Positions 12,292 through 51,099 of a stretch of DNA of 64,000 nt are shown here, piece by piece. Every line of letters starts with the position of its first letter. Position 1 is the first letter of the stretch. Location of the stretch: positions 5,468,776-5,532,775 of the forward strand of contig NC_049997.1 of the NCBI RefSeq assembly GCF_000003815.2, written 5' to 3'. A program made the translations under genes and the position numbers. The notes under the pieces were generated by a model. That model was not told the origin of the DNA. It searched no databases and saw nothing but the letters and a program-made list of their open reading frames with translations. Source of the DNA: Branchiostoma floridae (lineage: Eukaryota > Chordata > Leptocardii > Amphioxiformes > Branchiostomatidae).

Positions 12292-14303
12292 GTACACAAT
12301 AATCGAACTTTAAACTTCAAAATTTTTTGAGAGGTCTCTTAATATTCTAGTGAACAACAGGTGACGCCATGTCTTTTATTTTTCCCTAGGACCCCCACTG
12401 GATCAGCCAACAGAGGATGAAAATGGAATGGTTTCCGGCAAAATCTCCCAATGATATACCTTCATTTCGAAAAAGGTGGAATGATTCGGCTGTAACTGAG
12501 AACCCGGCGTGGAAAATGACTAAACCATTTTTTCCGGTGCTAAAAACGACCAGACCACTTTTATTACAAACAACCCGACGGTTTTCTTCAGTGCTAGAAA
12601 CGACCAAGCCGTTTTCTCCGGAGTTACAAACGACCAAACCGTTTTCTCCGGTGTTAAAAATGACCGATCCATTTTCTTCGGTGTTAAAAACGACCGAACC
12701 GTTTTCTGCTGAGGTTTATTTGCAACAGCTCAAGTTTTCCTTGGCTTCTGAGTCAGGCAGGCAATATTCTGTTGGAGATACGTTACATATTGTCATCTCT
12801 GCCAAAGATACAAGAAACAACATTGTTACAAACATTGGTGATTTCTTTCGTGCGTCCATTCTTACCCAAGTGAAAGGAAAGGCAGGTTCTGGTGCAGTCG
12901 GTATCATAACGGACCACCAGAACGGTACTTACACGGCGACGTTCCGACTGTTGTGGGAGGGGGAGGTCACCATCAAAATTCAATTGGTCCACCCACGGCA
13001 AGCTATCGATGTCATAGAAAGAACTATTCGAAAATATCCTTTTGACCTAGTAATGTTTCGAAAATTTAAAAACAAGATCGACACCGAGTGTAACGTAGAC
13101 CCGGCCATCTTCAAGAAGACCAGTGCAGTTTGTAACTACTCGGACCCGCATGCAGGCGCCTGGTGGTATTGTGAGAAAGCCGCCAACATTTCTTGTAACA
13201 CATCAGGCTACTATGATGAACTTTGGCAAAGAGACGTGAATGGTGGAAAACTGCATGGCAGGTATGTTGACGGACAATGGGCATATGTTTGAACAGCTGT
13301 CGGTTGAAACGTCTGTACATTAAGCCCAACACATTTACCGACAGAAATTTACTTCTTCTTTTGATTAATTTATTAGAATTCTCCATATACAATGACAATG
13401 GAAGGTATGACAGAACAGGTGTCAAAGGACACCTTTTCAAAGCCGCCATACCGAAATCATAACAATAATAATCATAATCATAATCAAATAATGATACACA
13501 TAAGTACAAGAACAAATATCATAATCAACGTAAAGCTCAAATCGGGATAAGTCAACAGAAATAGAGGTGGCACGCTGTGTTTGGTTGAAATCGCGAGTCC
13601 GGTATAGAAAGTCACATTGCACTATCATTATATGGCCAGGCGACTTTGACCAATCAGAAGGCCCCATTTCTAATTGGTTATAACACAAAGAACTTTATTA
13701 AAGTAAATAAACATTGGTGTTCAGTTAATCATCCATCACCGTTTTCCAATCAGAGGTAGAAGTCACAGAACATTGACCAATCAGAATAACACCCATCAGG
13801 GAGGAATTTTCACACCCAAAAGGGAGGAATGTTCATCGGTAGGCAAGTTTTAAAAAAGGTTTGACATGCTAAGATTGCAAATGTTACAAAAATGTTCTGT
13901 GGGAATTTGATTTCAAAATGAAATTTGTAATTTCCAATTATGTACCTCAATGACAAATCTAAATCAAACTATGCATTTCTCGGAAATTCGACACATGAAT
14001 TTACAAGTATATTGTATTAAAAGACTTTGATAATAACGTTAATGACCCGCCTATACCTCGGCCATGTTCATTTGTCGTTACACCTCGGGACGGTTAATTA
14101 ACCCTTCATTAGCTACTTGAAAAAATAATAATGCACCTACTATTTTGATTTTCAGGAATGGTAATTATGGCATGGTAGCTGAGATATCTGCTTTGGAGCT
14201 GTTCGTATTTTACATTCATTGCTACACACTCCAAATAGGGGGGGGGGGGGGTATTTGCAAGTTCGTGTCCGAGGGCTAATTGCAAGTACATGGTATAAAC
14301 GTA

Positions 14304-14340
<37 letters not shown>

Positions 14341-24500: not shown

Positions 24501-27500
24501 ACTTCAGTGGGAGTGCGCCAGGGTTGTCTCTTGTCGCCTACACTGTGTAACATATTCCTAGAAAACATAATGAGAGAGGCTCTCACACCAAAGGAGTCTC
24601 CTGTCAAGCTTGCAGGACGCATCATAACTCACCTTCAGTTTGCAGATGACGTAGACTTGATAGATGGCTCAGCAGCAGACCAGCAAGAACAGTTCAGTAG
24701 CTTAGACTCCACGAGCAGGAGGTATGGCATGGAGGTGAGCCTCGACAAGACAATGTGCCTAGTATCGGGTCCACCAGGCTTTAGAACACAAGTCACAGCA
24801 AGAGGTACAGAGTTGGAGCAGGTCGGGGAGTTCACCTACCTCGGCTCCTTACAGACAGAGGACTGCAGTTCAGCCCGAGAAGTGAAGGTCAGAATTGCAA
24901 AGTCTACTCTTGCATTGTCAAAGCTCAAACACATCTGGTCTAGCAAAAATATTACCATGCCGACCAAAATTCGTCTTCTACGCTCTCTTGTCTTGTCAAT
25001 ATTTTTATATGGTGCTGAGACATGGACACTGAACGCAGACATAAAAAAGAGAATAAATGCTCTAGAGATGAACTGCTACAGGCGGTTACTAGGAGTCCAC
25101 TGGACATCCCATACTTCAAACAAAGATATCCAGGAACGCATCACCACTCTGGCAGGACCACTACCCAGCTTCCTATCTTTGGTCAAAAGAAAGAAGCTTC
25201 AGTGGTTTGGTCATGCGTGTAGGCGAAAAGGAAGCTTGACAAATACAATCTTACAAGGCAAAGTGGAAGGAACGCGGCCGAGGGGTCGCCCCCGCCGAAC
25301 ATGGATAAACGACCTAAAAGAATGGACTGGAAGGACGTCAGCCCAGCTGACGAGGATGGCAGATGATCGCCAGAGCTGGAAGTCACTAGTGAACAGCATT
25401 ACTGCCCCTACGGCCACATGAGCTACGGGACGAGTGACAGTGACAGTGATAGTTTGGTATAAATAATACATATATTGCCCTGGGAAGAAGAAACACCAGA
25501 AAATACCAACCCCACCCGGCGGCAATGTTTGTAATCATTACATATTACCATGTTTGTTAAATGGGGGTCTGAGGAGTACACAATAATAAGAGAGGTGAAA
25601 TCTATTGGAATTCATTGTGCTTGGATGTGTCGCTGGCACAAACAATGAAATATGGCCAAAGGAACAAGAAATCACTAGAAAATACTGGGCGATCCCGGCG
25701 ACCGATTAGAAGAAGGGTGTCAATTTTGCACAGATGCATGCTGTTAATTAAATTATATCATACTTAATGAATATGTGTAATTGTGAAAATATTGTGAATT
25801 ATTTATATAAAAGCTACTTTAAGCTACTGTTCTCCTAGATACATCCCCACATTTTTATTTGGTAATTTTCCACCAGGCACCACACCCATGCAGCAGCCGC
25901 AGACTGATTGGCAGGCACGAGCGGACGCCGCTGCGAGTATACCCAACCCAATGTACGCCTCCAGAGATGCCACTGTGAGTGCACCCAACGCAAGCTCCGG
26001 AGAAGGTAAAACGTTTTAAGTCCACTTATTACGGCGTTCCTTTCTGGTCTCGCCTTTTATACTGTTTATATTCCTGTATGAACTGTGTATTGGTTTGGTA
26101 ATTTTCCACCAGGCACCACACCCATGCAGCAGCCACAGACTGATTGGTGGTCCATTGCGAACGCCGCTGCGAGTATACCCAACGCTTTGTACGTCTCCAG
26201 AGCAGGTAAAACTTTGTAATCCTGCGGAGTATTTTTTTGTCCTGCTGCTGTCTTGTCCTTGTCTTGCTGGGTCTGGTCACATCCCTTGTGCGATTGCCGT
26301 GTAATCACAAACCGATTGCACTCCTGAGATAGTCGTCCAGATGTCTTACAAAATTCATTGTTATCGACAAATCTCTCTTAGATCCTTGTCAACGATTTAT
26401 TTTGTTATTTGCTGCTTAAATCTTCTACGACATCAAAATATGAAGACAAACTTTCAACCTCTCGCAATTATACCAACGCGACAGCAATGCGAGCAAAATT
26501 GCATTCCAAAGCAATCCTTTGATCCATCGACGCCATCTTGAATTATAAAACTACAAAAAGACGCTAAAGATTAAAACAGAAATCAAAACATTCTCTTCTG
26601 GCACACAGCTTTGAATTAAAAAATACATTCACCACAAAAGCGTCAAATGTGACCGGTATTGCTATTGTTTACTGTAGTACTAGTTTTAATGAAGCAAATG
26701 TGATCCTAATTTCTAACATCGACAACACCGTTAGCTATTTGTATGATAGATGATCTTGATATTGTTTCATGAAGTTTCCTGTATCAACCGTAGTGTTGAT
26801 CTTAGTAATCTAGTAGTGGGCTCCGTCACTGATGACTGATTTTTTACTATTATGTTATTTATTGCACTGTTTGTTATTCCTAATTTATATATTCTGGATC
26901 AAAGTTGAACTGTAAATTGCAACCCGAAAATTGACCTTTCCCAAAGTTCCTACTGTGCAACTCATTCAACTCATTCCTTGACAAAGACTGAAGTTGAACA
27001 GTAAAACTGTAAGTAAGATCAAATTTTGTGTTGGAAATTACAGTTTAACATTTGAAATAAATCTACCTTGTTTTAAACGTTTTTGTTTCTAACAGACCGC
27101 ACGTATCCGGGTGGAACAAACAGCCGCGGTGCCTTCTGTAGTTTCATCCGCTCTCATCGAAGCTGTATAGCCGCCGGCATTGCCGTCCTGATAAGCCTGG
27201 TCGCTGTTGGACTCGCCCCTCTGACGTTCATCAACAAAGAGGTAAACACCCCTGTACTATAAAGCCTGTTGCAAATCAATGTTTCTAACATTTCTTCTAT
27301 TTTGTGTCTTGAGTGTATCAAGCAAGAACTTTCTGCTTTTTCATCTTACTTCTTTTTTACGTTTCATATTCTGATGTATATAAATACGTTTATACAGGAG
27401 ATATATGAACTTTCTATCACGGTTGACGTCTTGAAGCGCGACCAAGACGAAATGCGCCAACTAACCACCACTATTCACGACGCCTTGAAGCGCAAACAAG

Positions 27501-33873: not shown

Positions 33874-34701
33874 GCATTTCAAAAGTATATGTACACTGCT
33901 TATGTACTACAAAGTAAATATACAAATGTAGAATACAACACGGTGTATTCCGTATCACCCAAGGTACATGTACCACAGTACAGGAACCAGCCCGACCGCG
34001 GGTTGGATCGCCCGACGGCCGAAGACATTTTTTTTTTATTTATGTCATACCCACCTGAGAAAACCATGTTCTGATGTGAAATGCGCCAGAACTTGAACAA
34101 ATTTGGTGCCCTCGAACAAAAAGTGTTACAACAGCAATGTTTCAAATTCCGTGTCAGGTATTCGAATTGCCAACCATGCCACGCTCGGCCCGTTCGAAAT
34201 GGTTCGATTTACTCGAAGGAAGCCTGTGTCATACAACTTTCGAACTTGTGTGATACGGAAGTTATCACATGGTCCACAACACCCGTATCGAACATTTTCG
34301 CGTCACAGGTATGACATTATAAAGGCCTAAATGGAGACATACAATACGTAATCAGGAAAAATGTGATATACCCTATACGATTTTTACATGTAGCTTGAAA
34401 TTCATTCAGCATCAAAAAAGGGAAGCTCTGAATCTTAAAATGCTCTACAAAGAGCAGTAAATAACGAAGATGGTTTACAAAAATACAGTACTAAAATAAT
34501 TCTAACTTCACCCTTGACACCACTGAGTACAAAGCCCTGAACACTGTTAGAATATTGACTTAGCCAACATACACTGTGTGCACAGTGGTATGCTTTGGGT
34601 TAGTTAACTTTGTGACCACATGACAGGTAAACATTAACTAACTCAAGCTGCCAACTCTACCCAGCATTCCACAGTACAGGCAAACATCACAACGAGCCAA
34701 A
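33874..34701. promoter_or_regulatory. Upstream region of the GT-like/TPR gene
   Basis: No exon found. A poly-T run lies at 34029-34037. Promoter elements are not obvious; the 5' untranslated part probably starts in the few hundred bases before 34702. Confidence 0.25.
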
Positions 34702-34747
34702 ATGGCTACTGAAGGAAGTTTGAATACCGTTACCTCCAATGTAAAAG
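34702..34747 (+). CDS. GT-like/TPR gene exon 1
   Basis: ATG at 34702 (context CAAAATGGC) encodes MATEGSLNTVTSNVK and stops at the donor G|GTAAGG in phase 1, matching exon 2. Chosen because it is the nearest upstream ATG exon of correct phase with a strong donor. Confidence 0.65.
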
Positions 34748-37700
34748 GTAAGGAATTCTTTGCTTGATTCTTAATGTTCATGACTAGTACATGCAGATTC
34801 ACAATAGTTCAGTGGGGATGAACAGGAATAATATCTTTCACCTCAAAACTATGACAAAAACTAGCAAAGTTAAAACGTTTGTGTGCAGGTCAAAGTTCAG
34901 TAGAAAACGCTGGTGTACTTTAAGTTTCAACTTCAATGTAGAGATATTGGCAAAATGCAGAAGACACAAATACAAATAGGCTATTTTACAACATTTACCT
35001 GATGAATAGCTAAACACTGCCAGACTTCGACAAATGAAATAAATCAACTGATGGAGGTAATCTTTAAAAGGACAACAGAAATACACTGTTAAGGGCGACA
35101 ACAAGAATTGGCTAGCTTGGAGGTCAAAGTCCTTCAGACAGAGTTACAATGTACTGCAGCCACATTTAAGCATCTAACAAAAATAAGCTGTTGGGACTTC
35201 ACTTTACAATAATAACATTAGTTCACATTTATCCGCAGGGTAACCTATCTTCGTTCTTTAAAAAAAAACATGGTATTTATATATGGATATCAAGTCAACG
35301 GATGGTACTTTCAAACTGCAATATCTAATATGTTTTGTGTATTGAAAATATTGTAATTTGAGGCTAACGTACAGCAATTTGATAGCTATAAACACTGTTA
35401 TCAACGGATATAGGTTACCCCTCAGATAAAGGTGAACTTACGTTAATATTTATAAGAAAAAAACATAACAATCAGGTCTGTCATATTTTAATGTCTTAAT
35501 CTAGATTATCATATAGCCAGATGAAGTTGGCCAATCAGAGGCCCCCATTTCCTATGGGTTATCAGGGCGTAACGTCAAAAGTGTGCGGTTATATTAGAAT
35601 AACCGCACACTTTTTGGACCGCACCATTATACAGGGGAAAGTCATGGAAAGTTATTGTACAGTTTTTTGTTTGCAATCCATACGTAAATGTCAAAAAAAT
35701 TATGATTGATTGGTTATGTTGATTGGGGGTTCAAATGGGGGATATAGGGATACTTGAAAAGGAATTAATGCTGTTACACATTTTCATTATGGCTTTCTAT
35801 CATGATTAAGCTGGTAACTACCTAAATCACTCCGTATATTCGTACTTTGTCGTGCCCAAGTGAAAAGGCTCTGCATGGGGGTTACCAGGACCCCATTTTC
35901 TAGTTTGTATTGCTAATAAGCCACAAGTTGATGCTGATATGCTATCTAACAATAGTTAAATTGATTAGTAATAAAATGATTAGTTAAATGATGATGATGA
36001 AATGGTTTAATGGTTTGTATATGAACACTGTATTGTACAATATAGATATATTGCAAATGTATTTTTATGTAATGTATTAAAATGTTTATTTGATTAATAT
36101 TTGTGTGAAATAACTGTCAGTTGGATAGGCTATATGATAATGCCCCGCCTTATCATCGGTATATATGGTGAGATAATCCCTGGTCAGGTGCGATAACCAC
36201 CAAATAAACCACCTTGTTCGCTACGCTCACTCCGTGGTTTTTTTGTTTTTTTTTAATCGCACCCGACCAGGGATTATCTCACCATATACACCTTGAGGCG
36301 GGCCATCAACCCTTTATTACTTGATGATTCAGAAACCTTATGTTTATACCTCTGTCTGACAACAGCTTTATAACACCATACCCATTTTCCACACAGATCA
36401 GTCTGCTGTCTTACTGGTCCATACAGAGTATGGTGCATCTAAAGTAGGAAGCTCATCCATAAACAGACAGGTAGCAGAAATAATCAGGGAACATGAACCA
36501 GACGTCCCTGTATTCAGTACTGTTTTACAAGCAAGTGAAGAGGACAAACTGGATGCACAACAAGATGGAGTGGAACTGTTACTGCCTGAACTTAACCCAG
36601 GTGATCCCAGGACTGACCCAACACCAGACTGGCTAACATTTGACCATCGCTCCAAATACCCTCACCTTCCTTCCAATGTAAGGAGCATTGTGGGCCATGC
36701 TGATGTCACAAGTAGGGCAGCACTTAACATGAGGGATGATCGTTGTCCAGAAGCAAAAGTCCTCATCATTTGTAATGACATCTTAGATAAAACACAGGGG
36801 AATGAGATGGTAGGTACTAGGAAGAAGGAACACTCTACCCTTCAAGATTTACAAGAAGCTGATGTGGTCTTCTCCATTGGAAACAAGATATTTGATCACT
36901 GTAAGAACCAGTTCAGAGCGTTACCAGATGACAAGCAGCCAAAGCACTTTGAATTTCTTCCCAGACCTTCCAAGATCTTTGAACACACAAAAGCAAGCTA
37001 CACAGACACAGAGACAATGGTGGTCCTGTCCATAGGTAGGGTGAACAGTGTTGACAACTTGAAGGGGCACGACCTTGCAGTTAAAGCCGTGGACATTGTT
37101 GCCATGATAAAACGGAATGTGGAGTGTCGTATCAGAGGAATCAATGAAGAGGATAAAAACGTTCTTCAGACACATTTAAGGACAACAAATCTGAAGCCCA
37201 CCCTTCTGCCCTATGGAACACTGAAGGAGCTTCAAACTGACATGTTGAAAGCCCATCTTGTGTTGCTACCCTCCGAGACTGAACCATTCGAACTTGTTGG
37301 ACTGGACGCCATTGCAGCAGGGATTCCTGTCCTAGTTTCTAGTAAATCGGGACTCGCAGACTTTATGTTAAAGATATCACCAGAGTTTTGTTATTCTGTT
37401 GTAGATGTTGAGGGAAATGAGGAGGACAATGTAAAGCTATGGGCCAAGCGCATTGAACAGTCACTGAGTAACTGTGAGACTGAGTTTAAAAGAGCAGCAA
37501 GATGTCGGGACGAGCTTCTGTCAGCAAAGTATTGGGAAGAGTCTCATCAGCAGTTCATTGATAGTTGTTTACAGACAGGTAAGTCTTCTATAAAGCTTCC
37601 ACATGTATGTTGTACATGTACATAATAATGCGAAAAAATGCGAGAAATCTTTATCTCAACTTCAGATCTATGCAAAATAGAAAAATAATAATTCAGGCAG

Positions 37701-40700
37701 TCTGTGTCAAATGTTCTAGCTAAGAAGAATTAACTGGAACAATACAAAAGAAAACAATTTGCATATTTCACCAGAAAAAGGGGTGGGGGTGGGAATTACA
37801 GCAATAAAACTGAAGGGTCATTATAACAATAACATTTCTGCATTCCAATGCTATGCAGTTTTAAAGCATTCTATTATATATGACTGTGATGTAACATGCA
37901 TTGGCATAATACTGGTCATAAGCCTTATAACGGGAGGTGCCCTAACACGGTACGCTTTTTCTTGCGCTCAAACTCATGGCGCTCCATCGCTAGTTGCCTG
38001 AGAGTGGTCAAATTTTGATGACTGAATTTTTTACACATAGATTTGAACAACATACTTGAATAAGAAATGCATTCATGTGGTTCATGAACCTTTCGCACTG
38101 CGTGTTACAAGCGGCAAACACTGTGAGACAATTTCGTGTATGTAACCTTCAATTTTGTGCTACGCTGGACAGTGTGCCTAACTTGGTACGCATTTTTTAC
38201 ATTTTGCTCTCTTCAGAAGTAAGTGGTAAATTTAAGTACACAGAAAAAAATTAATAGTATGATATTTTAGCTTTCTTTTGACAGTAAAATCGTGACTGTA
38301 TGTGCTTCTTGTCTCACATGAGGAACGCTGTACCTAGAACAATCCAGCTGATGTTTTTACGGGCAATGGGCTAAATGCTCTGATTATGAATGCCCGACTA
38401 AAAAAACCATTACGAAAAAACGACACCGCCAACATCAACAAAACTCTGTCTGATTATATGAAAATATCATCTACATCTCTCTATCAAGTCTTATTTTCAT
38501 AGACAGCATGAATCATTTGTTACAGTCAAATAAATCTTTGGAGCGTTCTCTAGTCTGCCACCTTCACGGCCACACTCCCCTGGGAGTACAATGGTGGCAA
38601 TGTTTATGTCGCTTCCTTTTGGTTGCTTTTCTACTCAACAAACATTTGAAGACCCATATTCATCGTGTTTTTTGGAGCTTTATTTATTTGTATCATGGCA
38701 ATTGTGTGACTGCTTGGAAGAGTTCGTATAGTTAGCGACACGAGCCGCCAATACGCAGAGGCCGGTGACCGCAGTGATTCAACACTGTCAACATTACTGT
38801 TAGAATTCTGTTTAAAAAAAAATGAAGTAAATATGTTAAAGTATACTTGGAATGCAAATTAAAGCTGTGTGCATGGACTTGGTTTATTTACCTTTGTAAT
38901 CAGCATAGTCAGTGGTAACAAACACGGTGTACTTATGGATAATAAGATCAGCAAAAAATCCGTGCCGTCTTACGACCGGAACCGTCTTAGGGCGGCCCCC
39001 GTTACCGGTCGATTAAAAATAGTGGAACTTAAAGAGATCTACACATGCAACAATAGTTATTTCTGAGGTATGCACACTTCAGACATCTAGGTGTCCAATA
39101 CATAATTTACAAAGCATCGATAACAATGCATTCGAAGACAACAAGGCCAAAAGTTTTCAGGTCATTTTCTGGCCAGGCGAGCTCGTCGTGGGACAAACAC
39201 ACTGTCACGTTCATCGCCAGATTTGTAGATAATAATCACATGTGCTCACGGCACAAGACGAGCATGATTCAACAGCAATCTTGAATTTCTTTTGGTGACC
39301 TACAACTCGTGTAAAAGTGTGAGGAACCGTTGCATTATAAATAGCCCGGATCTACGGCTGAATGGGTCAACTTGAACGTACGCCGCCATTTTCCCGCCAT
39401 TTTTAATGCTACGGCCAGCAGTAAAGTTTTACGTCATAGCGGTTGTGACGGACCAAAATTAAATGAAAATTCTTGTCAGTATACGCCCATTTTCTCATGA
39501 CTTTTTGTATGCTCATGCAGATTTTTGTTTTGTGCAACTACTAACAGGAAAGAAAGGAACAACAGAGGATGAATAAAGGTACATAGCGGCAGTTAATTGT
39601 GCCGTGTTTCGTTCGACCGGTATAGTGCAGCCCCTTCCAACCACGCGCCCGTTCTCCGTGCAATTCCGCGGTGTGTTCCAATTACGATATTATGTTTTTA
39701 GCAGGACCAGAGAGACAAAATAATTTACACAGAAGAAGTGGCAAAGGTAAGCTGTAACAGCAACATGTAAATGGAGAAAATGATGCGTTGATCATTTGCC
39801 AAATTAGCATTGCTTGAGAAATTGCAGTAAACCGACCGGTATTATGCTAATGGATGTTATGTATAGTTCAAATTAAGACTATACTACCTCTCAGTTATAT
39901 CTTATTTCTTTGCTACAGAGTTTGAAAATGAATTGCCATTGTGAACATATTTCCACATTTCTTTTTAAATACAGACTAATTTAGTTCAGAATATCAACCT
40001 TTCACTATGTATCTCTCTACTAATACTCAATACTTTAAAGCCTCTAAACATACAGGGTAAGGAAACAGGGAGAAGATTAAAAAGACTGTCTCCTATTGAA
40101 TATGTTTGTAGCAAATGTAAATTGGCTTACAAATTTCTGCTCGGCCACATTCAGCATCCATGTTTATTTTTGGCATCCAGGAGCACAATATCCTTCTGAA
40201 GTCCAGAGGCAAAGTGCAGCAGCTCCTGCGGGAGAAAACAACAACATCAGGGAACTGTTGATAACAGGTAAGATTAACTGTAGGCAAAATGACTGCACAG
40301 AATTAGATCATGAAGAACAATTTAAAGTAAGCCTAAAGATTCTGTTTTTTTACTCAAAAAAGTCAAAGAAAAAGATATTTCATGCAGTGTCTTTCATAAG
40401 TCATAATACATTTTTACATTGCATCTGAAGAGAGAAAATCATAATGCATTTGAGAAATCATTTAACATCTAGATCTACTCAGCTTCATATTAGCAGTATT
40501 CTAAATAAATCAGCATTTAATGTGATAGTAGCATAAACTCTGGATTATAAGAGCATTAAAGCTGAAAGACAAAGAATACTCTATCGTTAAAAAAATCCTG
40601 GTTTAGTTTGCACACAAAAGATCAGCAACTACATGACTGTAAATCTTTCAATAAAATGTCAAAGTCTCAGTTAAAACATGCCCAATTCAATTCATACTAC

Positions 40701-43700
40701 ATAATATTATGTACAAAAATGTATGTCCAGGTAGTGGAACACAACAGACTGGTGAGGTGCAGAGCAGGAAAAGAGGTGCAGAAGCAGGTGAGGAGAATGA
40801 TGAAAGCAGGAAAGTCTTCCGAAAAGGTAACTTGTACTTTAAATAGTCTAGTAATACTTGTCAGCAAAAATGTCAATCTCAATCTCAATTAAAGAGAAGA
40901 AAATGTGAAAGAATATAAACGAGCAATCTATTGTTTGCACTGTGTGTTATGTCATTGTTGACCACTTATATTTCATAATGAAGGCAAGTTTATTTTTGGC
41001 CAAAGTTTTTTTTTTTATTCGCAAGCTCGCATAAGTTTTGGGGTTCCCAGAGGATGTCATTATCACCCATATAATCAAATCAACATGGCCTTATCTTCTA
41101 ATTGATTTATCATAGTTTGTTGCCTGACATTGCAATAAAGTTCATTCATTCTCTTCCAGGGGCACCTCCTCCACTGCCCATTGTGGTGGAAATACTGGCA
41201 CAAGTTATACCCAGTGTTAAATCCCCAAAGCAAATGAAAAGCTACGCTTCAGCAAGAGAGACATTGGTCACTTTGGATCTCACCACAGTAACAGACGAGA
41301 CTCTTTATTTGCTTGAACAGGTAAAGCCTGAAATAAAGACCATGGAAGACTTGCTTGACACTGCAGAAGCAATAGAGCAGATAGAGAAATTCAAAGGTGT
41401 TAATGTCACTGGCATAAGGATAGGCAGTCTGGTCTTCTACCTGCAATGTACAGACTTGTCTGGGCTTGGGGAACTCTGGTTCAAGTACAAAAGTGGGAAA
41501 CTGAATGACCTGCTGGTCGGTAGTTTGATAAGTGAGGAAAGCTTACAGCAACTCTGTGCTGAGAGCATCTCTGTGAAGACAACCATCAACATAGAGGACT
41601 TCAGGAAGGCTCTGGTGTACCTACTCACTACATCTACTGCCAAAGGTAACTATATTAATTAAACCAGGTCCTTCAATTTTCTTACTAATTCATCAGTACG
41701 TCACCCAAATCATCAATATGATTTAAAAGTGAGTTTGTCTATGTAGTAAATAATATTTACACATAATGCAACAGAAACAAACTGAAAATGATGCGATTCT
41801 AAATTTATTTTATCTTGATTGATTGATTGATTGATTGATTGATCTTATAGGGTAGTCCCTTCAGTCTAGATGACTGATTTCCAAGGGAGCCCTGACACAT
41901 GTTCGCACATGTTTACACGGCGGGTTATATCGCCCCTTACGGGGTGACATACCCTTTTGCTGGTAAATCACTGTGTGGCTGATACGGTATGGAGGTTCGC
42001 CAGGCCTCCATCCGGGTGATTTGAAGTGAATCACCAACTCCAGACAGAAGGGTTTGTTCCATCTCACACCGCACCATCGCACGTGTGGGCGTTCTTTGAC
42101 GTGCATGGGGTGTGACTCTCCCCATACACGGGACCTCCATTTAACGTCCTATCCGAGGGACGGCCCTAGCCGAAGCTAGGTACTCATTTTCACCTGAGTA
42201 TAGTGAGGAAATCCGTGTAAAGTGCCTTTCCCAAGGGCACAAGATCGGTGACACGCAGTCGGATTCGAACCCGCCACCCCTCGGTCACGAGGCACAAATC
42301 CTGCTGCTGCGCCAGACGATCTCACAATTGTTGTATTTTCATAACAAATATACTTCAATCATGAAATGTATGATACTAATTATCTTCTGTACGTTATATT
42401 TAAAGGACAGCACACACCAAGACTACCTCAGGAGTACCCGCTCTACCAGCCACACATCCACACCAGGAGCAATGTGCTGGATGTACTTCATCTTGATGAC
42501 ACAAACCTGACAGGGTCTACAGTGGAACTGACAGAGGACAGACAACATTATCTCATCAGGACCAAAGTTAGCCAACTAAAAATAGCAGGTACATGTATAA
42601 AAACATAAATGTGTTACTCATTACATTTTATTTTATATGCCTGGAGTTGGTTCATAACATTTCGCCATTGCTTATGCAAATTAGATCCCTATGCAGATTA
42701 GATTTACATAATAATATTAAATTGTATCAAGCATCATTTGCATAATAAATGTGTATTGATATTTCCTTCTTTCTTAGCTAAAAATGTGACAAGTTTGAAA
42801 GTCCTATAAGGAATGCAGTTGATTTACAAACTTTTCTCATTAATTATGCAAATTAGCAGTCGATTTGCATAATTATAATTCCATCATGTAAGTCTTCCCT
42901 TTGGCTATCTACATACCAAAAACCATGACGATCCGTCAACACGTTTATATTTTCTCATTAATTATGCAAATGAGGCCGTCATTTGCATAATTAATATGCA
43001 TTGATATTTCTCTCTTCCTCATCTATATATGTGACAAGTTTGAAAGTCCTATCATGAAATGCAGTGGATTTATAAACTTTCCTCATTAATTATGCAAATT
43101 AGTTGCTGATTTGCATAATTGGTATTCCATTGTGTACATTGTTACTTGGGCTATCTACATACCAAAAACCATGACGATCCATCAACACGTTCTCGAGTTA
43201 TTCTCGTCCAAAGTTTGAAAGGAAATCGGCGACTGCAGTTCCAAACAAGCCGCTAGGGGGTCCAAACTTAAAGCACTTACTCTCTGCACCAAGGGCTATC
43301 TACCACTCAAAAATCATAACCACAGCAGGTCCAGAACACGAGATAAAAAAAATTGAGGTTTTGCTGCAGTACCTTAGCAAGCCGCTAGGGGGCCCATTAT
43401 CGAACTTGACCTTCGTTTTCCCGACCCCTACCCACCTACCAAATATTATTGGGATCCATCAAAGGCTTCTTGAGTTATACTGTTAACACACAGACAGACA
43501 GACAGACAGACAGACACACAGACTCACAAGCCTAAAACATAACCTTAGCCATTCTGGCAAAGGTAATAAGTCATTGATTATAGGACAGAGTGAAATGTTA
43601 CATGAATGTCACAATTATGGAAATCAGGGTATGCATGCTCTCTTCTGCATAAACAGTAGCAATATTTACAAAATTTAGAAAATGATCACTCATCATAACT

Positions 43701-45901
43701 GGCAAGCCTTGATCATTTCAAAATGTGGAAATTGCAGGAATAAAGCCTGACCAATACTGGAAAAGGCCCTTTTTAGTTTGGTTTGCAGTTAACGTTGTTA
43801 CCTGCATGTATGCAGGTATGGTTTTGATGCTGGTGGAAACTTTTCGGTAGCCGGGGATGTAGGGCGCTGTATCTCGTGAACGGATGGTGCGAGCACGACG
43901 ATTTTTGGTACGTGGGTTGGGGGTGGTAGCCTGACACTCAGGTATGATTTTGGGCCTCTTGGCGCTTGACCTTGACATTGAAGGTGGCATTTTTGGTGTT
44001 TTGGGGGCACTTTTGGCGCTGTGTGTCCGGAACGATACGCGCGATTGCGACGATTTTTGGTGCATGGGTGGGGGGTTGTTGCCTGTTGCCTAGGATTGAC
44101 TTTGGGCCTTGTCGCGTTTGAACTTGACCCGGCAGGTCGAATTTTGTGTCCGGGAGGGGTGTTTCCGGAGTTATATCTTCTGAACGGCTGGTGCTGGCGC
44201 GATGATATTTGGCACATGTGTCGGCGGTGGCTGAATAATGCTCAATTTTGATTTTGGCGCCCTTGGTGCTTGAACTTGACATTTTAGGTTACCTTTTGTG
44301 CGGGCACGGGGCGTGCGCTGTATCTCCGGAACGCAAGGTGCCATTGTGTTGCCATTTGGTACGTGAGTTGTTTGTGGTGTCCTGGTGGTCAGGTTTGATT
44401 TTGGGCCTCCTAGTGCTTGAACTTGATACTGTATAGGTTGACCCTGTTTTAGTGTGGTTGGGGCATCCTCCCAATATCTGCTTGGTTTTAAAAACAGATT
44501 ATGGTTGGGTGTAGAACCATCATCTGGCCTGGGCCACCTTCAATTTATCAGGTTACTTAGTGGCACTGACAGTTTGCCAGATGACGGGAGTGTGCCAGAT
44601 TATATATCTGTTGGTCAGGTATAATTGGAGTTTGCTTATTACTCTTTGTGGTGTTTCTAGAGCTGTATAGTACTGAGTTTTAAGTTCCGGTACAAGTTCC
44701 TTTACCCTGTTGGCAATCATGTTTGTACTTGAACTTAAACAGAAGAAGATGCAATTTTCTAATGTGGAGGAGAACTGTATAGAGTGTGGGCATAAGAGAA
44801 AGGTATACACTGTATGATTTGTCCTGTGTTTCTTTTTGTTTCTTTGGTAATGCCATTTCCATACTGTATACAGGTAATTTGTTGTTTTGGGCTAGTCATA
44901 TTCGCTTGGTTTTTGGGCCTGCTTAATCTATGGTACAGGCAGGGTTAAGTGGTGGAGGCTTAGCTTTGTTCTGTTTTAAATTCAGTATCGTTTGTTGCAT
45001 TTTGTCGCGGCAAATATATGATGAAATTCCCCTTCTAAGCAACTGCTCATTGGTTTGTGGGGATGTTTGCTGGGTGTTTGCTTTGACTACAACAGCTTCT
45101 GAACTTTTCAAAGCTTCCATTGCCAGCAGCTTGCCATCTATAAATGGGATTGACAAGGACATTTTTCATAGTAAATTATGCTGTTAAATTTGGCTTAGAT
45201 ACTACAGGAGATTTAGGTTTGGGTTGGATGGATTGAATGAAAATATCATACCACCCTGGGGACAAACTGTTGCTGCTGCATGGGGGCTACCACTATTCAT
45301 GTTGTCTAATGTCTATGGAACTACAGATAAAAGTATCATTGGTCAAATTATGCGAGTAACATTCCGATGTCAAGTGAATAACACCCCAGAAATAAATCTT
45401 TAATGAATATCATTGGAAGAACACAAACCAAGGAGACTTAGCAGCTGCATTAGGTCAGTACATTGAAATAGGAAGATATTAGTATATCATGTGACAGAGT
45501 AACTACATGTGCATGGGCCATCTGAGACAAAAAAAGGTAGCGTCTCAACAACTTCAAAGTACTGTGGTTGGTTACATACTTAAGAAATCCAAAATAAGTA
45601 ATGTTCATTTGGAATTTCAGAGTCAGACTTTTGCATGGTGCACAACCAACACAGTAAAAAGCTCATTTTTCCAACCACGTACCACAGACAAAAAGGCAAA
45701 AATACACAATAGGTCTACAGAAACCCAATACATTTCATGCAGGCCTGAGGTCTACGAACTCTTGTTGGTCTATTCTTCTTTCAGACTTTGAGGTTTACAT
45801 CTAACCTACAGTAACTGTTATAATTACCTTCGCCAAGAAGGTTATATTTACCTCCATTTACCTCCATGAAAAATGGAGGTATAGTTTTCAGTGTGTCTGT
45901 C

Positions 45902-45951
<50 letters not shown>

Positions 45952-48900
45952 TGTTTCCGGATATTTGTGGACATCATAACTTGAGAACCTCTTGATGGAC
46001 TACGATGATATTTGGTATGTGGGCAGGGGTTGGGAAGACGAAGGTCAAGGTCAATTTTGGGCCCCCTGGTGTGTGACCTTGGTACTGCAGCAGAACATCA
46101 ATTTTTTTGTATCTTTTCAACTGGACATGCTATGGTCTTGATTTCTTGGTGGCAGATACCTTTTGATGTAAGGAAGAAGTGGTGTTAGTTTGGGCCCCCT
46201 AGCAGCTTGTGCTGAAACTGCAGGAGCATTTTTGTCAAAATCTTCCAAGAAGCATAATGGACCATAGGAATGATATTTCGTATGCAGGTACCTGTGGCAG
46301 AGATGTACATAATGAAGTCAAAATTATGCAAATTTGGACTTAATTTGCATACTTAATGAGGAAAATCTATCTTTACAGTGTTTCCCAATATAGGACTCAA
46401 ATACATGTTACATATGTAGTTTGTGGCAGGCGGAAGTTAAGCAGATACTAATTATGCTAATAAATTCCTAATTTGCATAATTGATTTGAAAGTGTCCTAA
46501 TTCTTCTTAGTACGTGCAGTAAATGATAGGGCTGTGAACACTCTGACCTGTGTACGTTAGTGAAAGGTGTACAAGCATAAATTATGCAAATGTGAAAGTC
46601 ATTTGCATAATCAGAATATTTTTTCGGTAGTGTTTGTTTGTAGAAAAGCGCCATAACTCGAGAATGCGTGCATGGATTGTATTGATATTCGGTATGTGGG
46701 TAGGTCTTGATGAGTCCTGGGTACAATTAGCAACTTGTGACGGTACTGCAGTGGACTATCGGGTTTGATATCTCGAGTTCTGGACATGCTGTGGTTATGA
46801 TCTTTGAGTGGTAGACTATTGGGGCAGAGAATAAGTGGTATAGGTTTGGGCCCCCTAGCAGCTTGTTTTGGCAGGGGCCGGTTAACTGTCAGACTTTGAA
46901 AGGGAATAACTTCAGAAGAGGTTGACAGATCGTCATGGTTTTTGGTATGTAAATAGATTAAGTGGTGCTTAATATAATCTGATAGAAATTATACAAATCA
47001 AAATCTAATTTGCATAATTGATAAGGAAATTGTCTAAACCCACTCTCAGACTGTTCCACTGTAGGACGATTTTGCAAGATGTGATATTTGTAACTGAGAA
47101 AGAGAAGAATGATAATAGATGCATTTTATGCAAATATAGACCTAATTTGCATAATTATTGAGAAAATGCTATAACCCCACTGTGGTAAATGACAGGGATT
47201 TCTTACTTATGGCATTTGGAGTTATGTACATAATCATGCAAGTGAGGAGCTAATTTGCATAAATTATCAGAAAATGTGAATGAACTATTCTTTGTAAGGG
47301 GACGTCACTAATGGATTTTTAAATAAAGTCTCAAGTCTCTTAGCATAGATTGTGTATGTCTATCATTTGGAAGGAAGAGATGATTGAGGCAAATTGAAAG
47401 CTATAACTTGATAATCATCATTCTATGATTTTGCATTTCTGTGTTATCATTATGAAATATCCATTGCTGTATGAATTCAAAGATGACCAACAGACTCCAG
47501 ACCCACCTGATGACACAGATGTCCCACCAGATGACACAGATGTCCCACCTGATGACACAGATGTCCCACCTGATGACACAGATGTCCCACCTGATCACAC
47601 AGATGTCCCACCTGATGACACAGATGTCCCACCTGATGACACAGATATCCCACCAGATGACACAGATGTCCCACCTGATGACACAGATGTCCCACCTGAT
47701 GACACAGATGTCCCACCTGATGACACAGATGTCCCACCTGATGACACAGATGTCCCACCTGATGACACAGATGTCCCACCTGATGACACAGATGTCCCAT
47801 CTGATGACACAGATGTCCCACCAGAGATATCAGAACTGGCCTCACTGGACATCAGGGAACTGGAACAGCTGATGGAACAGCCCAGGAAGAGAACTTTCTC
47901 TGTAGTGTCATCAGGGTACCATACAGGCACTCCTGGATCAGGACCCAGCAGACCTCACTCACCTACAGGTATGGTAATGATATCTTTAAATTGGCATTCA
48001 CTATGTACTAATTTGCTACATCTAGATGGTAGTGTGGTAACATGCATTGGCATAATACCGGTAGTAAGACTTATACCGGTAGATTAGAAATACTGGAACT
48101 TAAAGAGATCTACACATGCAACAATAGTTATTTCTGAGCTGTGCACACTTCAGACATCTAGGTGTCCAATACACCATTTACAAAGCATCGATAACAATGC
48201 ATTAGAAGACAACAAGGCCAAAAGTTTTCAGTATACTTTTTTTTTAAATTTCGGGGTAGGCAGCTCGTCGTGGGACGAACACACTGTCACATTCATTGCC
48301 AAATTTATATAGATCATAATTACACATGCTCACGGCACAAGACGAACATGATTCAACAACAATCTTGAATTTCTGTTGGTGACCTACAACTCATGTAAAA
48401 GTGTGAAGAACCGTTGCATAATAGCCCGGATCTACGACTGAATGGGCAAAATTGAACGTACGCAGCCATTTTCCCGCCATTTTTATATCTACGCTAGCAG
48501 TGAAGTGTTACGTCATAGCGGTTGTGACGGACAGAAGTTAAATGAAAATTCTTGACAGTATACGTCCGTTTTCTCATGACATTTTGTATGCTCATGCAGG
48601 TTTATGTTTTATGCATTTACTGACAGAAAAGGAAGGAACATCAGAGGATGTATAATGTACATAGCGGCAGTTAATTGTGCCGTGTTTCTTCCTACCGGTA
48701 TTTTGTACCCCCTCCCAACCACGCGCCCTTTCGCCGTGTAATTCCTCGGCGTGTTACAATTACAATATTACGCTTTTAGCAGGGCAAGAGTGGCAGAAAA
48801 GTTACACAGAAGAAGTGGCAAGGGTAACCTATAACAGCAACATGTAACTGGAGAAAATGATGCGTTGACAATTTGTCAAATCAGTATGGCTAGAGAAATC

Positions 48901-51099
48901 GTCGTAAACGTACCGGTATTATGATAATAGATGTTACAAACAGTCAGCTGCATTTTCTACAATGAAAAGAAACATGTCATGTTATGATGATGACATAACG
49001 CTAGTTCACCTTTATCCGCGGGGTATCCTATATCCGTTGTTCTTCAAAACAGGGTATTTTTAATAGGCACATCAAGCCGATGGGTAGTAGTTTTAACTGC
49101 AATATACTGAAAATATTGCAATTTGAAATTACTGTCCGTTGACGTGATATCCCCAAATACCCTGTTTTTAAAAGCAAAGGATATAGGTTACCCAACGGAT
49201 AAAGGTTAACTAGCGTTACATCATTGTAGATGTAAAATGAGGTACATTTGTATCTGCACCTTTCTGTTTCCCAGGAGAACTTTTACTTGCACAAAAAAAT
49301 AATCTGTGCAAAGGAGATCAGGAAAAATGAAATGAACAATTGAAGATGGTGGGAAATAGGTCATGAACAAAATGTGTGATTAAATAGCATGGATATATAA
49401 TTATCACTTTATATCATTTTTTGACTGTGACCTAATGCATTCAGACAGACTTGTGTAAACAAGAAATAAACAAGCACTGCCAGGTTATAATACTTAAACC
49501 CTTAATCTCTACCTGTCTTTCCTACAAGGTGAGCTTCAAACACAGGGCATGTTGAGGACCCTCCTTGCTAGACTGAATGCACCTGAAGTGATGAAAGACA
49601 AGGCACAACAGTTTGACCTGTACTGTGAGATAGGAGATCTCTATAGGACTAAACTACACAACTTACAGTCAGCTCTGCAGTATTACCAGTACATGCTAAA
49701 GTGTTCTCAAGAACTGTCAGATATCACAAAACAGGCGAAGGCCTACAGCAGACTAGGTCTGACATGTGACATGTTAGGCCTGCAACAGGAAGCATACAGG
49801 AACCATGAGAGAGCTCTGGCTATCTATAAAGTAGAAACCAGTAAAGAAATTGACATTTGTATAGCTTACAAAAACCTGGCCTCATCATTAGCACTGTCAG
49901 GTCAAGTGTCAGATGCAAAAAGTAACTATGAGTCAGCCTTGGCTGTTGCCATGGAGACAGGAAACAAGACTGAACAGATGGACATTTACTGTAAGCTGGG
50001 TGATTTACACAGAGAACAGCTACATGAACCACAGGTCTCACACAAGTACTACACAGAGATGTTGGCACTAGCCAGGGACTTGGGGAGGAAGGGCAAGGAG
50101 AGACAGGCTTACAACAGACTGGGACTGGCTTGTGATGACATGCAGGATTATGAGGCAGCTCTGGAGTGGCATCAGAAGAACCTGAAGATGTGCCAAGAAA
50201 GTGGAATCAAGACTAACCAGATAACAGCATATCAAAACATAGCTGATTCCTACAAGGTACTGGGTAAACTGGACCTGGCCAGATCTCACTATCAATCAGC
50301 AATGACCATCGCCATGGAGACAGGAAACAAGACTGAACAGATGGACATTTACTGTGAGCTGGGTGATTTACACAGGAAACAGCTACATGAACCACAGGTC
50401 TCACACAAGTACTACACAGAGATGTTGGCACTAGCCAGAGACTTGGGGAGGAAGGACTGGGAGAGGCTGGCTTACAACAGACTGGGACTGGCTTGTGATG
50501 ACATGCAGGATTATGAGGCAGCTCTGGAGTGGCATCAGATGGACCTGAAGATGAGACAAGAAAGTGGAGACAAGACTCAACAGATATCAGCACATCAAAA
50601 CATAGCTGGTTCCTACAAGGCACTGGGTAAACTGGACCTGGCCAGATCTCACTATCAATCAGCAATGGACATTGCAATGGAGACAGGAAACAAGACTGAA
50701 CAGATGGACATTTACTGTAAGCTGGGTAATTTACAAAGAAAACAGCTACATGAACCACAGGTCTCACACAAGTACTACACAGAGATGTTGGCACTAGCCA
50801 GGGACTTGGGGAGGAAGGACAAGGAGAGTCAGGCTTACAACAGACTGGGACTGGCTTGTGGGGACATGCAGGATTATGAGACAGCTCTAAAGTGGCATCA
50901 GATGGACCTTAAGATGAGAATAGAAAGTGGAGACAAGACTGAACAGATGGCAGCAAATCAAAACATAGCTGCTTCCTACAAGGCTCTGGGAAAACTGGAC
51001 CTGGCCAGATCTCACTATCAATCTGCAATGGACATCGCCATGGAGACAGGAAACAAACATCACAAGGAAAACATTGCTAAAATCCTGGCTTATCTGTAG
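34702..51099 (+). CDS. GT-B-like / TPR multidomain protein (gene span)
   Basis: Eight exons join without a stop: 34702-34747, 36397-37578, 40181-40267, 40731-40826, 41160-41645, 42406-42588, 47483-47968, 49529-51099. Their sum is 4137 bases, giving 1378 residues plus TAG. Every one of the seven introns is phase 1. Layout: short N-terminus (1-15); GT-B glycosyltransferase-like domain (16-409); Gln/Lys-rich linkers (410-470); a conserved middle domain (471-632) with a continuation (633-693); an acidic PPDDTDV linker (694-855); a TPR superhelix (856-1378). No signal peptide or membrane helix is seen, so it is probably cytosolic. GT4-like domains joined to TPRs are familiar among large families in amphioxus and cnidarians; whether they transfer sugar or serve as nucleotide-sugar sensors in immune signalling is not known to me. 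I give no gene symbol. Confidence 0.85.
35213..35445. mobile_element. Foldback MITE, copy 3
   Basis: Left TAACATTAGTTCACATTTAT, right CAGATAAAGGTGAACTTACG; middle words GATATCAAGTCAACGGATGG, CAATATCTAATATG and ACGGATATAGGTTACCCC match the other copies. Confidence 0.85.
35577..35614. repeat. Perfect 16-bp inverted repeat, 6-bp loop
   Basis: AAAAGTGTGCGGTTAT and its exact reverse complement ATAACCGCACACTTTT are separated by ATTAGA. It lies in a segment related to 13630-13685. Confidence 0.9.
36142..36303. mobile_element. GCCCCGCC foldback element
   Basis: The left arm GCCCCGCCTTATCATCGGTA..GAGATAATCCCTGGTCAGGT..GCGAT is inverted on the right as ATCGCACCCGACCAGGGATT..CACCATATACACC..AGGCGGGCC. 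About 50-bp arms around a spacer with a poly-T run. No coding capacity. Confidence 0.85.
36397..37578 (+). CDS. GT-like/TPR gene exon 2: GT-B glycosyltransferase-like domain
   Basis: A single 1182-base exon, phase 1 both sides, carries the whole domain. Residues 20-39 (VLLVHTEYGASKVGSSSINR) correspond to the first strand and loop that in related proteins reads SEYGxSKGGxSTxNR; here one loop glycine is Val and another Ser. IVGHADVTS and AKVLIICNDI follow. The C-terminal Rossmann half has VVLSIGRVNSVDNLKGHDLA and the family hallmark PSETEPFELVGLDAIAAGIP at residues 307-326. The GT4 E-x7-E pair is present as E311-x7-D319, a conservative change at the second acidic position. Fold assignment is firm; catalytic activity is uncertain because of these two changes. 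The ATG at 36570 is internal and not the start. Confidence 0.88.
37579..37891. other. Intron 2 of GT-like/TPR gene, first part
   Basis: Begins GTAAGT. No feature before the transposon at 37892. Confidence 0.6.
37892..39859. mobile_element. TAACAT..ACCGGTA transposon, long form
   Basis: The left end TAACATGCATTGGCATAATA followed by CTGGT is inverted at the right end (ACCGGTATTATGCTAATGGATGTTA). The copy at 48038-48936 has the same ends and shares 39004-39859 almost throughout, but lacks about 1 kb of this copy (about 37936-39003). I see no transposase, so even the long form looks non-autonomous. Inside it, 39705-39746 has splice-like borders in phase 1 on both sides (14 codons), which could allow exonisation. 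Confidence 0.8.
40181..40267 (+). CDS. GT-like/TPR gene exon 3
   Basis: 87 bases, phase 1 both sides, acceptor TTTTGGCATCCAG, donor GTAAGA. Encodes GAQYPSEVQRQSAAAPAGEN then NNIRELLIT (residues 410-438), a polar linker of no recognised fold. Confidence 0.68.
40268..40730. other. Intron 3 of GT-like/TPR gene
   Basis: AT-rich, no feature recognised. Confidence 0.6.
40731..40826 (+). CDS. GT-like/TPR gene exon 4
   Basis: 96 bases, phase 1 both sides. Encodes GSGTQQTGEVQSRKRGAEAG then EENDESRKVFRK (residues 439-470). The KRGAE..RKVFRK stretch is a basic/acidic linker and may include a nuclear-localisation-like SRKRGAE word (weak). Confidence 0.65.
40827..41159. other. Intron 4; LINE-tail-like 3' end
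   Basis: The final ~60 bp include GCAATAAAGTTCATTCATTC, resembling the retrotransposon tail at 8750-8780, which then doubles as the pyrimidine tract of the exon 5 acceptor (CATTCTCTTCCAG). Confidence 0.45.
41160..41645 (+). CDS. GT-like/TPR gene exon 5: conserved middle domain
   Basis: 486 bases, phase 1 both sides, residues 471-632. Starts GAPPPLPIVVEILAQVIPSV, then a helical Glu/Lys-rich part (TLYLLEQVKPEIKTMEDLL). The pattern GSLVFYLQCTDLSGLGELWF then KYKSGKLNDLLVGSL..LQQLCAESISVKTTINIEDF follows. I recognise this beta/alpha pattern (GSLxFxLxCxxLxxLxxLWxxYxSGxL, later L.TTI) from invertebrate NLR, death-domain and TPR proteins, where it resembles the N-terminal domain called TRADD-N. I am not certain of the database name. 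A role in protein association is inference. Confidence 0.75.
41816..42325 (-). mobile_element. tRNA-derived SINE (~500 bp)
   Basis: On the minus strand: an A-box-like TGGCGCAGCAGCAGG at about 42310-42296, then a perfect B box GGTTCGAATCC (plus-strand bases 42271-42261). A body follows with GGGAAAGGCACTTTACACGG, TCCTCACTATACTCAGGTGA and AAATGAGTACC, a type of core found in many animal SINEs, and finally a (TCAA)n tail at 41842-41816. It lies in intron 5, opposite to the host gene. It encodes no protein; frames at 41861-42140 are spurious. Confidence 0.82.
42406..42588 (+). CDS. GT-like/TPR gene exon 6
   Basis: 183 bases, phase 1 both sides, residues 633-693. Encodes GQHTPRLPQEYPLYQPHIHT, RSNVLDVLHLDDTNLTGSTV and ELTEDRQHYLIRTKVSQLKI. 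Probably a linker with a short beta-rich segment. No recognised fold. Confidence 0.72.
42640..43564 (+). mobile_element. Octamer-rich dispersed element, copy 3 (variant hairpin)
   Basis: Contains three clean inverted pairs of the form TTATGCAAATnnn..ATTTGCATAA (42847, 42962, 43090), the CCGCTAGGGGG motif twice (43250 and 43382), (GACA)n at 43493-43515, and a terminal hairpin ACCTTAGCCA..TGGCAAAGGT at 43542-43564 instead of ACCTCCAT..ATGGAGGT. Internal segments are themselves repeated (GTGACAAGTTTGAAAGTCCT twice). Confidence 0.75.
43860..44440. repeat. Diverged ~145-150 bp tandem repeat
   Basis: Four units each begin with TGTATCTCnnGAACG-like sequence (about 43868, 44018, 44171, 44310), then GATGATTTTTGGTACGTGGG-like sequence, then GATTTTGGGCCTCnTnGnGC and TTGAACTTGAC. 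Long minus-strand frames (44217-43798, 44282-43938) follow from this pattern. Confidence 0.75.
44441..45821. other. Intron 6: no exon supported
   Basis: A minus-strand frame 45162-44923 (includes GKLLAMEALKSSEAVVVKAN) has protein-like composition but no family match or splice context; it may be a fragment of a mobile element gene. Nothing else is evident. Confidence 0.35.
45826..47290 (-). mobile_element. Octamer-rich element(s), copy 4, reversed
   Basis: On the plus strand it opens with two hairpins in a row, ACCTTCGCCAAGAAGGTT (45826-45843) and ACCTCCATGAAAAATGGAGGT (45860-45880), then (GT)n at 45906-45948, and then the family phrases in reverse order: GATGATATTTGGTATGTGGG, TTTTGGGCCCCCT, CTAGCAGCTTG and ATGCAAAT..ATTTGCAT pairs at about 46326, 46452, 46577, 47129 and 47233. 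Its length suggests two nested or adjacent copies. Confidence 0.7.
47483..47968 (+). CDS. GT-like/TPR gene exon 7: acidic PPDDTDV linker
   Basis: Phase 1 both sides, 486 bases, residues 694-855. Fifteen seven-residue units of PPDDTDV (variants PPDHTDV, PPDDTDI, PSDDTDV) run from 47504 to 47818. The tail EISELASLDIRELEQLMEQP then RKRTFSVVSSGYHTGTPG looks like a helix followed by a basic/Ser-rich patch. The acceptor TTCAAAG at 47476-47482 has a poor pyrimidine tract, so the exact 5' border is the least certain in this gene. Frames in other phases of the repeat are shadows. Confidence 0.7.
47504..47818 (+). repeat. 21-bp coding minisatellite, 15 copies
   Basis: The unit CCACCTGATGACACAGATGT + C is repeated with very few differences (CCACCA for CCACCT, GATCAC for GATGAC, ATATCC for ATGTCC). 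As 21 is a multiple of three, all six frames stay open. Confidence 0.95.
48038..48936. mobile_element. TAACAT..ACCGGTA transposon, short form
   Basis: Ends TAACATGCATTGGCATAATA + CCGGTA and, inverted, TACCGGTATTATGATAATAG + ATGTTA. Matches 39004-39859 of the long form through most of its length, including CTTAAAGAGATCTACACATG and GTGACGGACNGAANTTAAAT. Confidence 0.82.
48996..49218. mobile_element. Foldback MITE, copy 4
   Basis: Left TAACGCTAGTTCACCTTTAT, right GATAAAGGTTAACTAGCGTTA. The arms are nearly complementary across the whole unit, the best preserved copy. Confidence 0.88.
49529..51099 (+). CDS. GT-like/TPR gene exon 8: TPR array
   Basis: Terminal exon, phase 1 entry after TTTCCTACAAG, TAG at 51097-51099; residues 856-1378. 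Tetratricopeptide repeats of about 40 residues: AYSRLGLTCDMLGLQQEAYR, AYKNLASSLALSGQVSDAKS and similar words show the W/L-G-Y-A-F-A-P spacing of TPRs of the kinesin-light-chain/LGN style. From 49951 onward sets of three TPRs recur every 121 residues (METGNKTEQMDIYC.. to ..LGKLDLARSHYQSA). The superhelix presumably binds partner proteins. Minus-strand frames of up to 193 codons opposite it are shadows of the repetition. Confidence 0.9.
49951..51060 (+). repeat. 363-bp coding repeats (three copies)
   Basis: ATGGAGACAGGAAACAAGAC begins at 49951, 50314 and 50677, and ATGGAGACAGGAAACAAACA at 51040, an exact 363-bp period (121 codons). Units are nearly identical over long stretches, far more alike than the first TPRs of the exon. 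Confidence 0.93.

Follow-up and report, generated by a model that had tools for sequence, protein, structure and literature searches.

We found that one gene in a 64-kb window of the Branchiostoma floridae genome joins a GT4 head, a probable TRADD-N-like adaptor and a TPR tail. We read it as belonging to a modular family of intracellular proteins of conflict or immunity type that has expanded within its lineage, and give this reading a probability of roughly 0.6. Judged from exon-by-exon comparison, its paralogues seem to have swapped heads and tails one exon at a time. The window is the whole stretch of DNA that was analysed (C19:5468776-5532775), and the genome searched was the assembly of 513,431,437 bases in 431 contigs.

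The gene model was re-derived from the window sequence and runs from 34702 to 51099 on the plus strand, with eight exons encoding 1378 residues and one terminal stop. Each of the seven introns is GT..AG and each is phase 1. The eight-exon join, the seven phase-1 introns and the 1378-residue frame of the first-pass annotation were thus reproduced exactly. The exons, and two copies of a dispersed element lying between them, are as follows.

34702..34747, plus strand: exon 1, start codon and 15 residues; a 73% identical exon with the same donor lies at C19:7.92 Mb (copy A)
36397..37578, plus strand: exon 2, GT4-conflict domain, residues 16-409 (PF20706, E 4.1e-60)
39003..39859, plus strand: intron-2 copy of the dispersed element, a direct repeat of 48074-48936 (83-95% by block)
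40181..40267, plus strand: exon 3, weakly supported linker; 87 nt here and 84 nt in copy A, with frame and splice sites kept
40731..40826, plus strand: exon 4, basic linker; homologous exons in copies A, B, C, C4a and G
41160..41645, plus strand: exon 5, helical-looking segment, then probable TRADD-N-like domain; residues 471-632
42406..42588, plus strand: exon 6, linker; identity 85% to B, 69% to C and 54% to G
47483..47968, plus strand: exon 7, (DDTDVPP)n repeat of 21 nt, then a Ser/Pro-rich end
48038..48936, plus strand: intron-7 copy of the dispersed element, roughly 0.9 kb
49529..51099, plus strand: exon 8, TPR array and stop; residues 856-1378

The weakest-supported exons of the model are 1 and 3, which were recovered in copy A only, and 7, which is mostly a 21-nt minisatellite (15.3 copies, 96% by TRF). 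Exon 1 was absent from the sequence searched near copies B, C and D, and outside copy A exon 3 had no match in the other paralogue regions searched. Outside the repeat, the end of exon 7 shares 85% identity with B, 81% with D and 79% with G. Exon 4 varies in length, with 96 nt in the window, 102 nt in A and 93 nt in B and C. The intron-7 element shares 98.7% identity with a copy near paralogue A, in the C19:7.90 Mb region, and 96% over 761 bases with another at C19:13.67 Mb.

Within the 64-kb window there was no second copy of exons 2-8 beyond weak, chance-level matches. Elsewhere in the window we noted pieces of an NXPE family gene at 12390-16245 (Neurexophilin 7e-15, NXPE4_C 4e-79), a long open reverse-transcriptase ORF at 23136-25421 (RVT_1 2.7e-35) that is probably part of a LINE-like element, and a C-type lectin domain ORF at 28654-29049 (1e-11) which overlaps a second long frame. 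At 61774-64000 both strands carry long repetitive frames, which resemble a large minisatellite; this runs off the window end, leaving it 0.66 kb before exon 2 of the neighbouring copy B.

When exon 2 was used as a genome-wide query, 105 of the 106 candidates were scored and 101 of them matched, among them the window copy; 71 of these matches were counted as near full length. The PF20706 profile gave at least 57 matches genome-wide, all over the cut-off (57 of 102 candidates were scored, the window copy not among them). Three tandem neighbours, B, C and D, have their exon 2 beginning 0.66, 37.8 and 60.1 kb beyond the window end. Copy B has exons 2, 4, 5, 6, 7 and 8 in order, copy C exons 2, 4, 5, 6 and 8 in order, and copy D exons 2, 7 and 8. 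In copy A, which lies on the minus strand, exons 1-5 are present together with roughly half of exon 6 and some pieces of exon 8, again in order. Copy G (C19:13.73 Mb) has exons 2, 4, 5, 6 and 7 and the start of exon 8 in the 5.4 kb examined, within which its TPR frame is open for just 284 residues.

Exon 2 matched PF20706 (GT4-conflict; Pfam name 'Family 4 Glycosyltransferase in conflict systems') at 204.2 bits, against a cut-off of 26, with positions 1-384 of 385 of the profile covered. When an 11-row exon-2 profile was compared with PDB structures, it matched GlgA (2e-9), 2jjm (6e-8), which we take to be a BshA-type structure, and RfaG/WaaG (5e-7). By sequence profile, exon 2 is predicted to have a GT-B glycosyltransferase fold; the GT4/GT-B domain proposed at first pass stands on the full-length Pfam match and on these profile matches to GT-B structures. 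In the genome-wide PF20706 search, all 14 of the 14 control genomes from ordinary prokaryotes also gave matches over the cut-off. Therefore, the family name alone is no proof of a conflict role, and at genome scale the cut-off also admits ordinary GT4 enzymes. No relatives of exon 2 were found in phage records and viral contigs.

In GT4 enzymes, an N-terminal glycine loop (GGI) and an E-x7-E motif serve donor binding and catalysis. The loop reads KVGSSS in the window copy and in A, and is altered in all ten C19 copies. It is GGI in C13a, C13b and five of six bacterial rows, and AGI in C4a. At the second motif, three of 13 aligned paralogues (window, A and E) have E-x7-D, the window copy and A reading EPFELVGLD; the other ten and all six bacterial rows have E-x7-E. 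The C3/C5 copies keep both GGIST and E-x7-E in eight of eight cases. The GH and GR..KG residues are intact in the window copy, and A has LQG for LKG. With two donor-site motifs altered, catalysis by the window GT4 looks doubtful. The altered head is still constrained, since exon 2 has a dN/dS of 0.21 between the window copy and A.

The head could be a pseudo-glycosyltransferase, no longer catalytic and acting as a sensor of sugar nucleotides, a decoy or a structural module, an explanation whose chances we place a little short of even. It is favoured by the contrast between KVGSSS and EPFEL..D in the window copy and A and KGGIST and EPFGL..E in C3/C5, together with the constraint that persists on exon 2. 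Against it, the GH and GR..KG residues remain, aspartate for glutamate is a conservative change, and the catalytic roles of the altered residues are those assigned to GT4 enzymes in general.

Alternatively, the gene could encode a GT4 enzyme of the ordinary kind, cytosolic or secretory, with a partner-binding TPR tail and no link to immunity. The GT-B profile matches and the retained GH and GR..KG residues would agree with this, as would weak matches of exon 2 to metabolic GT4 models such as BshA, which fall far below the cut-offs of those models. However, the best Pfam family is GT4-conflict, both the glycine loop and E-x7-E are altered, the family is greatly expanded, and Death and IIGP ORFs lie beside some relatives, all of which make an ordinary enzyme unlikely. 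These neighbouring ORFs lie downstream of other GT4 exons on the same strand and form putative joins: Death on C2 (1.5e-11), interferon-inducible GTPase on C13 (7.9e-32) and, in addition, ankyrin at C19:9.96 Mb (4.9e-54). At C13:7325041-7331812 a GT4 exon, a TRADD-like_N ORF and, 4.5 kb on, an interferon-inducible GTPase ORF follow one another on one strand, and could make up a GT4-TRADD-N-IRG gene. At C2:27335630-27338339 a GT4 ORF is followed on one strand by a Death-domain ORF and a RAI1-like nuclease ORF (1.3e-9).

Exon 5 scored 18.0 bits against PF20694 (TRADD-N), under the cut-off of 23.7. All nine exon-5 relatives scanned were likewise under the Pfam cut-off, four of them without any TRADD-N match. 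The TRADD-N superfamily carries a uS motif, a small residue and a serine between strands 2 and 3, as defined in the part of Kaur et al. 2021 (PMC8195603) drawn on here. With strand positions assumed, window exon 5 has GS at this site, and across the family alignment glycine is present in 13 of 13 rows, followed by serine in 10 and cysteine in three. On C13, TRADD-like_N exons over the cut-off come after three GT4 exons (46.9, 40.6 and 42.9 bits); exon 5 occupies the matching position, which we counted in favour of a TRADD-N-like identity. Exon 5 probably encodes a divergent adaptor of TRADD-N-like type that falls under the Pfam cut-off.

Direct homology between exon 5 and human TRADD is not claimed (the Smith-Waterman score is 24, where shuffled sequences average 24.2, and the hhalign P is 0.25), and no TRADD structure was found when the exon-5 profile was compared with structures. 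Separately, 50 of 69 TRADD-like_N matches over the cut-off lie within 0.6 Mb at C17:18.30-18.90 Mb, 48 of them on one strand; this large array is distinct from the GT4 genes listed.

Exon 8 matched TPR_12 at 155.4 bits (cut-off 30.1; E 4.3e-46). The first-pass reading of the gene as GT4 plus TPR thus holds for both domains, the TPR module being well over its cut-off, and had overlooked the TRADD-N-like exon 5 between them. TRF identified a 363-nt unit within exon 8 (3.1 copies at 49948-51056, 93% match), and the three similar units are a sign of recent tandem growth of the TPR tail. We make no claim of diversifying selection on the TPR units, as their dN/dS of 0.44-1.28 did not differ clearly from wrong-frame controls. 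Among PADLOC models, none matched exons 2 or 5, and exon 8 matched TPR models only, plus two weak others.

To compare the history of the modules, dS was calculated by the Nei-Gojobori method for exons 2, 5 and 8, and synonymous differences were compared by Fisher tests, which are uncorrected and come from non-independent pairs. Given in the order exon 2/5/8, the dS values are 1.05/0.24/0.14 for window-B, 0.95/0.25/0.65 for window-C and 0.07/0.09/0.51 for B-C. For window-G, exon 2 is saturated and exons 5 and 8 are at 0.30 and 0.18 (Fisher tests against exon 2: 7e-19 and 2e-23, respectively). For window-H, dS is 2.60 in exon 2 and 0.26 in exon 5. Exon 2 differed from exon 5 with p < 1e-4 in 14 of 21 pairs, and from exon 8 likewise in 14 of 21. 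There was no difference between exons 2 and 5 for window-A (0.32 and 0.25; p 0.43) or between exons 2 and 8 for window-C (p 0.09). In trees of exon 2, the groupings window+B and window+G were rejected (AU 3e-66 and 2e-96). In the exon-8 tree, window+B was the starred grouping, B+C was rejected at 0.03 and B+C+D was not rejected (0.067), and in the exon-5 tree window+A was not rejected (p 0.12). The clades for these tests were picked after the dS table was known, and the p-values are descriptive.

The surrounding sequence was also compared. The stretch 34323-35208, which is noncoding but for exon 1 and extends into intron 1, is an 81% match to A, and near B, C and D it found dispersed-repeat matches only. 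Exon 4 is closer to A (62%) than to B and C (42%). The flanks around exons 5-8 match B at 75-90% and match A more narrowly. Similarity to B begins at 41145, but this position was dropped as a break point, since similarity to A begins at 41147 too. There is at least one switch between exon 2 and exon 5, and from these comparisons it probably lies near exon 4.

The discordant dS values of the exons therefore indicate that modules were exchanged or converted separately between loci. Head replacement and tail conversion are each possible, being compatible with the mosaic. Separate exchange or conversion of modules has likewise been reported for zebrafish NLRs (PMC4852459). Tentatively, and at distinctly less than even odds, we propose an intracellular receptor-effector family of a chordate that diversifies in the germ line by whole-exon exchange between loci, in which at least three types of GT4 head (window/A; B/C/D; G/H/H2) are combined with TRADD-N-like and TPR tail exons that are closely related to one another, some of the heads being binding-only pseudo-glycosyltransferases.

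Could the discordance instead reflect assembly error or exon-specific mutation rates? The data come from a single assembly, and five paralogue regions contain runs of N. However, window-A dS is similar in exons 2 and 5, B-C dS agrees in exons 2 and 5 but not in 8, and in B and C the divergence of exon 5 exceeds that of exon 2 when C4a is the reference but falls far below it when G is. No fixed per-exon rate explains all three comparisons. With the 5′ flank matching A and finding only dispersed repeats near B, C and D, we regard such an artefact as quite improbable.

Exon order and strand are alike in eight loci including the window. Because order and strand of the main exons are conserved among the paralogues, the eight exons very probably belong to one gene, which counters the possibility, raised at first pass, of GT-like and TPR exons in separate genes. 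The modularity that had been read from the phase-1 introns is borne out by the paralogues, where phase-1 borders are kept wherever alignable; a clean alignment was not obtained for the exon-2 acceptors of B, C and D or for the exon-8 acceptor of C. Between A and the window, indels in exons 3 and 4 come in multiples of three, with the reading frame and the splice dinucleotides preserved. Two adjoining genes (GT4 with TRADD-N, and TPR) wrongly joined are very unlikely: intron 6 is long (4.9 kb) and rich in repeats, and at locus I (C19:8.18 Mb) none of the listed GT4 matches lies close to the exon-5-type and TPR exons, but the shared order and strand, the phase-1 borders and the compact copy G, with exon 2 to the start of exon 8 in 5.4 kb, all stand against it.

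Among the 71 near full-length GT4 exons, seven are followed by an exon-5-type exon and eight by this type of TPR exon, on the same strand, at most 20 kb downstream and with no GT4 between (the TPR exon of A is a fragment); one more TPR pairing, the ninth, has another GT4 in between. In the upstream direction, again on the same strand and within 20 kb, there were three pairs for exon 5 and five for TPR, and there were no opposite-strand pairs. Therefore, most of the 71 GT4 exons are without this particular tail. Comparing the window copy with its paralogues, dN/dS is 0.21-0.34 in exon 2, 0.16-0.33 in exon 5 and 0.32-0.51 at the start of exon 8, values that indicate mostly purifying selection on the gene.

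In the conflict or immunity reading that we prefer, the TPR superhelix would bind a pathogen, danger or partner molecule, and the TRADD-N-like domain would oligomerise or recruit signalling partners. The TPR scaffold may also control the glycosyltransferase head, as proposed at first pass. The GT4 head would be the deployed part, glycosylating a target if its active site is intact; with an altered site, as in the window copy and A, it may have a sugar-nucleotide-binding or regulatory role. Germ-line diversity would arise as phase-1 exons permit replacement or conversion of heads and tails between loci, the cases here being mainly on contig C19. If modules are exchanged as units, haplotype comparison makes antibody-free diversification of intracellular receptors testable, and the altered GT4 heads offer a clean test of enzyme versus sensor.

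Several known systems resemble this gene, and the published ones are compared here on the parts of the papers used. The GT4-TRADD-N proteins of cephalochordates, hemichordates and cnidarians (PMC8195603) share the order of GT4, TRADD-N (here the probable TRADD-N-like exon 5) and repeats, a lineage-specific expansion and a conflict-type GT4. There, LRRs are named after TRADD-N, whereas in the window, A, B, C and G the order of GT4, exon 5 and repeats ends in TPRs, with exon 5 under the TRADD-N cut-off. The same source describes GT4 in bacterial conflict systems and gene links with retrotransposons. It also reports TTC28-like TPRs fused to a TRADD-N of the DEDD2 clade, the clade of the GT4-linked one. 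This fusion unites TRADD-N and TPRs as locus I does in amphioxus; GT4 is not mentioned for it in the passages used, whereas the window gene has one. Clustered and expanded coral glycosyltransferase-TPR genes (glycos_transf_1-TPR, with -LRR and -ankyrin forms; PMC12314368) also combine a glycosyltransferase with TPRs, mostly without NACHT, but are cnidarian, and TRADD-N and exon exchange are not described in the part of that paper used. Zebrafish NLR-B30.2 genes (PMC4852459) likewise have modules discordant in synonymous divergence, with most genes on one chromosome arm, and the pattern was attributed to gene conversion and exon shuffling; the modules are NACHT, LRR and B30.2 there and GT4, TRADD-N and TPR here. 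A GT4-conflict protein of Rhizobium plasmid pTiK1_93 matches PF20706 and is 28% identical to exon 2, but has its GT4 at the C-terminus of 1637 residues, with glycine loop and E-x7-E intact.

The analogy with modular immune proteins drawn at first pass fits this published GT4-conflict/TRADD-N class, and the gene would by that likeness have an immune function. The label of an under-described system fits less well than first suggested, since the class is in print (PMC8195603, PMC12314368) and Pfam already names exon 2; the exact gene or architecture may already be in the figures or source tables of PMC8195603. The proposal of a GT4 and TRADD-N module passing from bacterial to animal immunity is here tied to a concrete gene cluster, with exon-level evidence of diversification. 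The window gene joins the published GT4-TRADD-N / GT-TPR class, and the exon mosaic is what this analysis adds.
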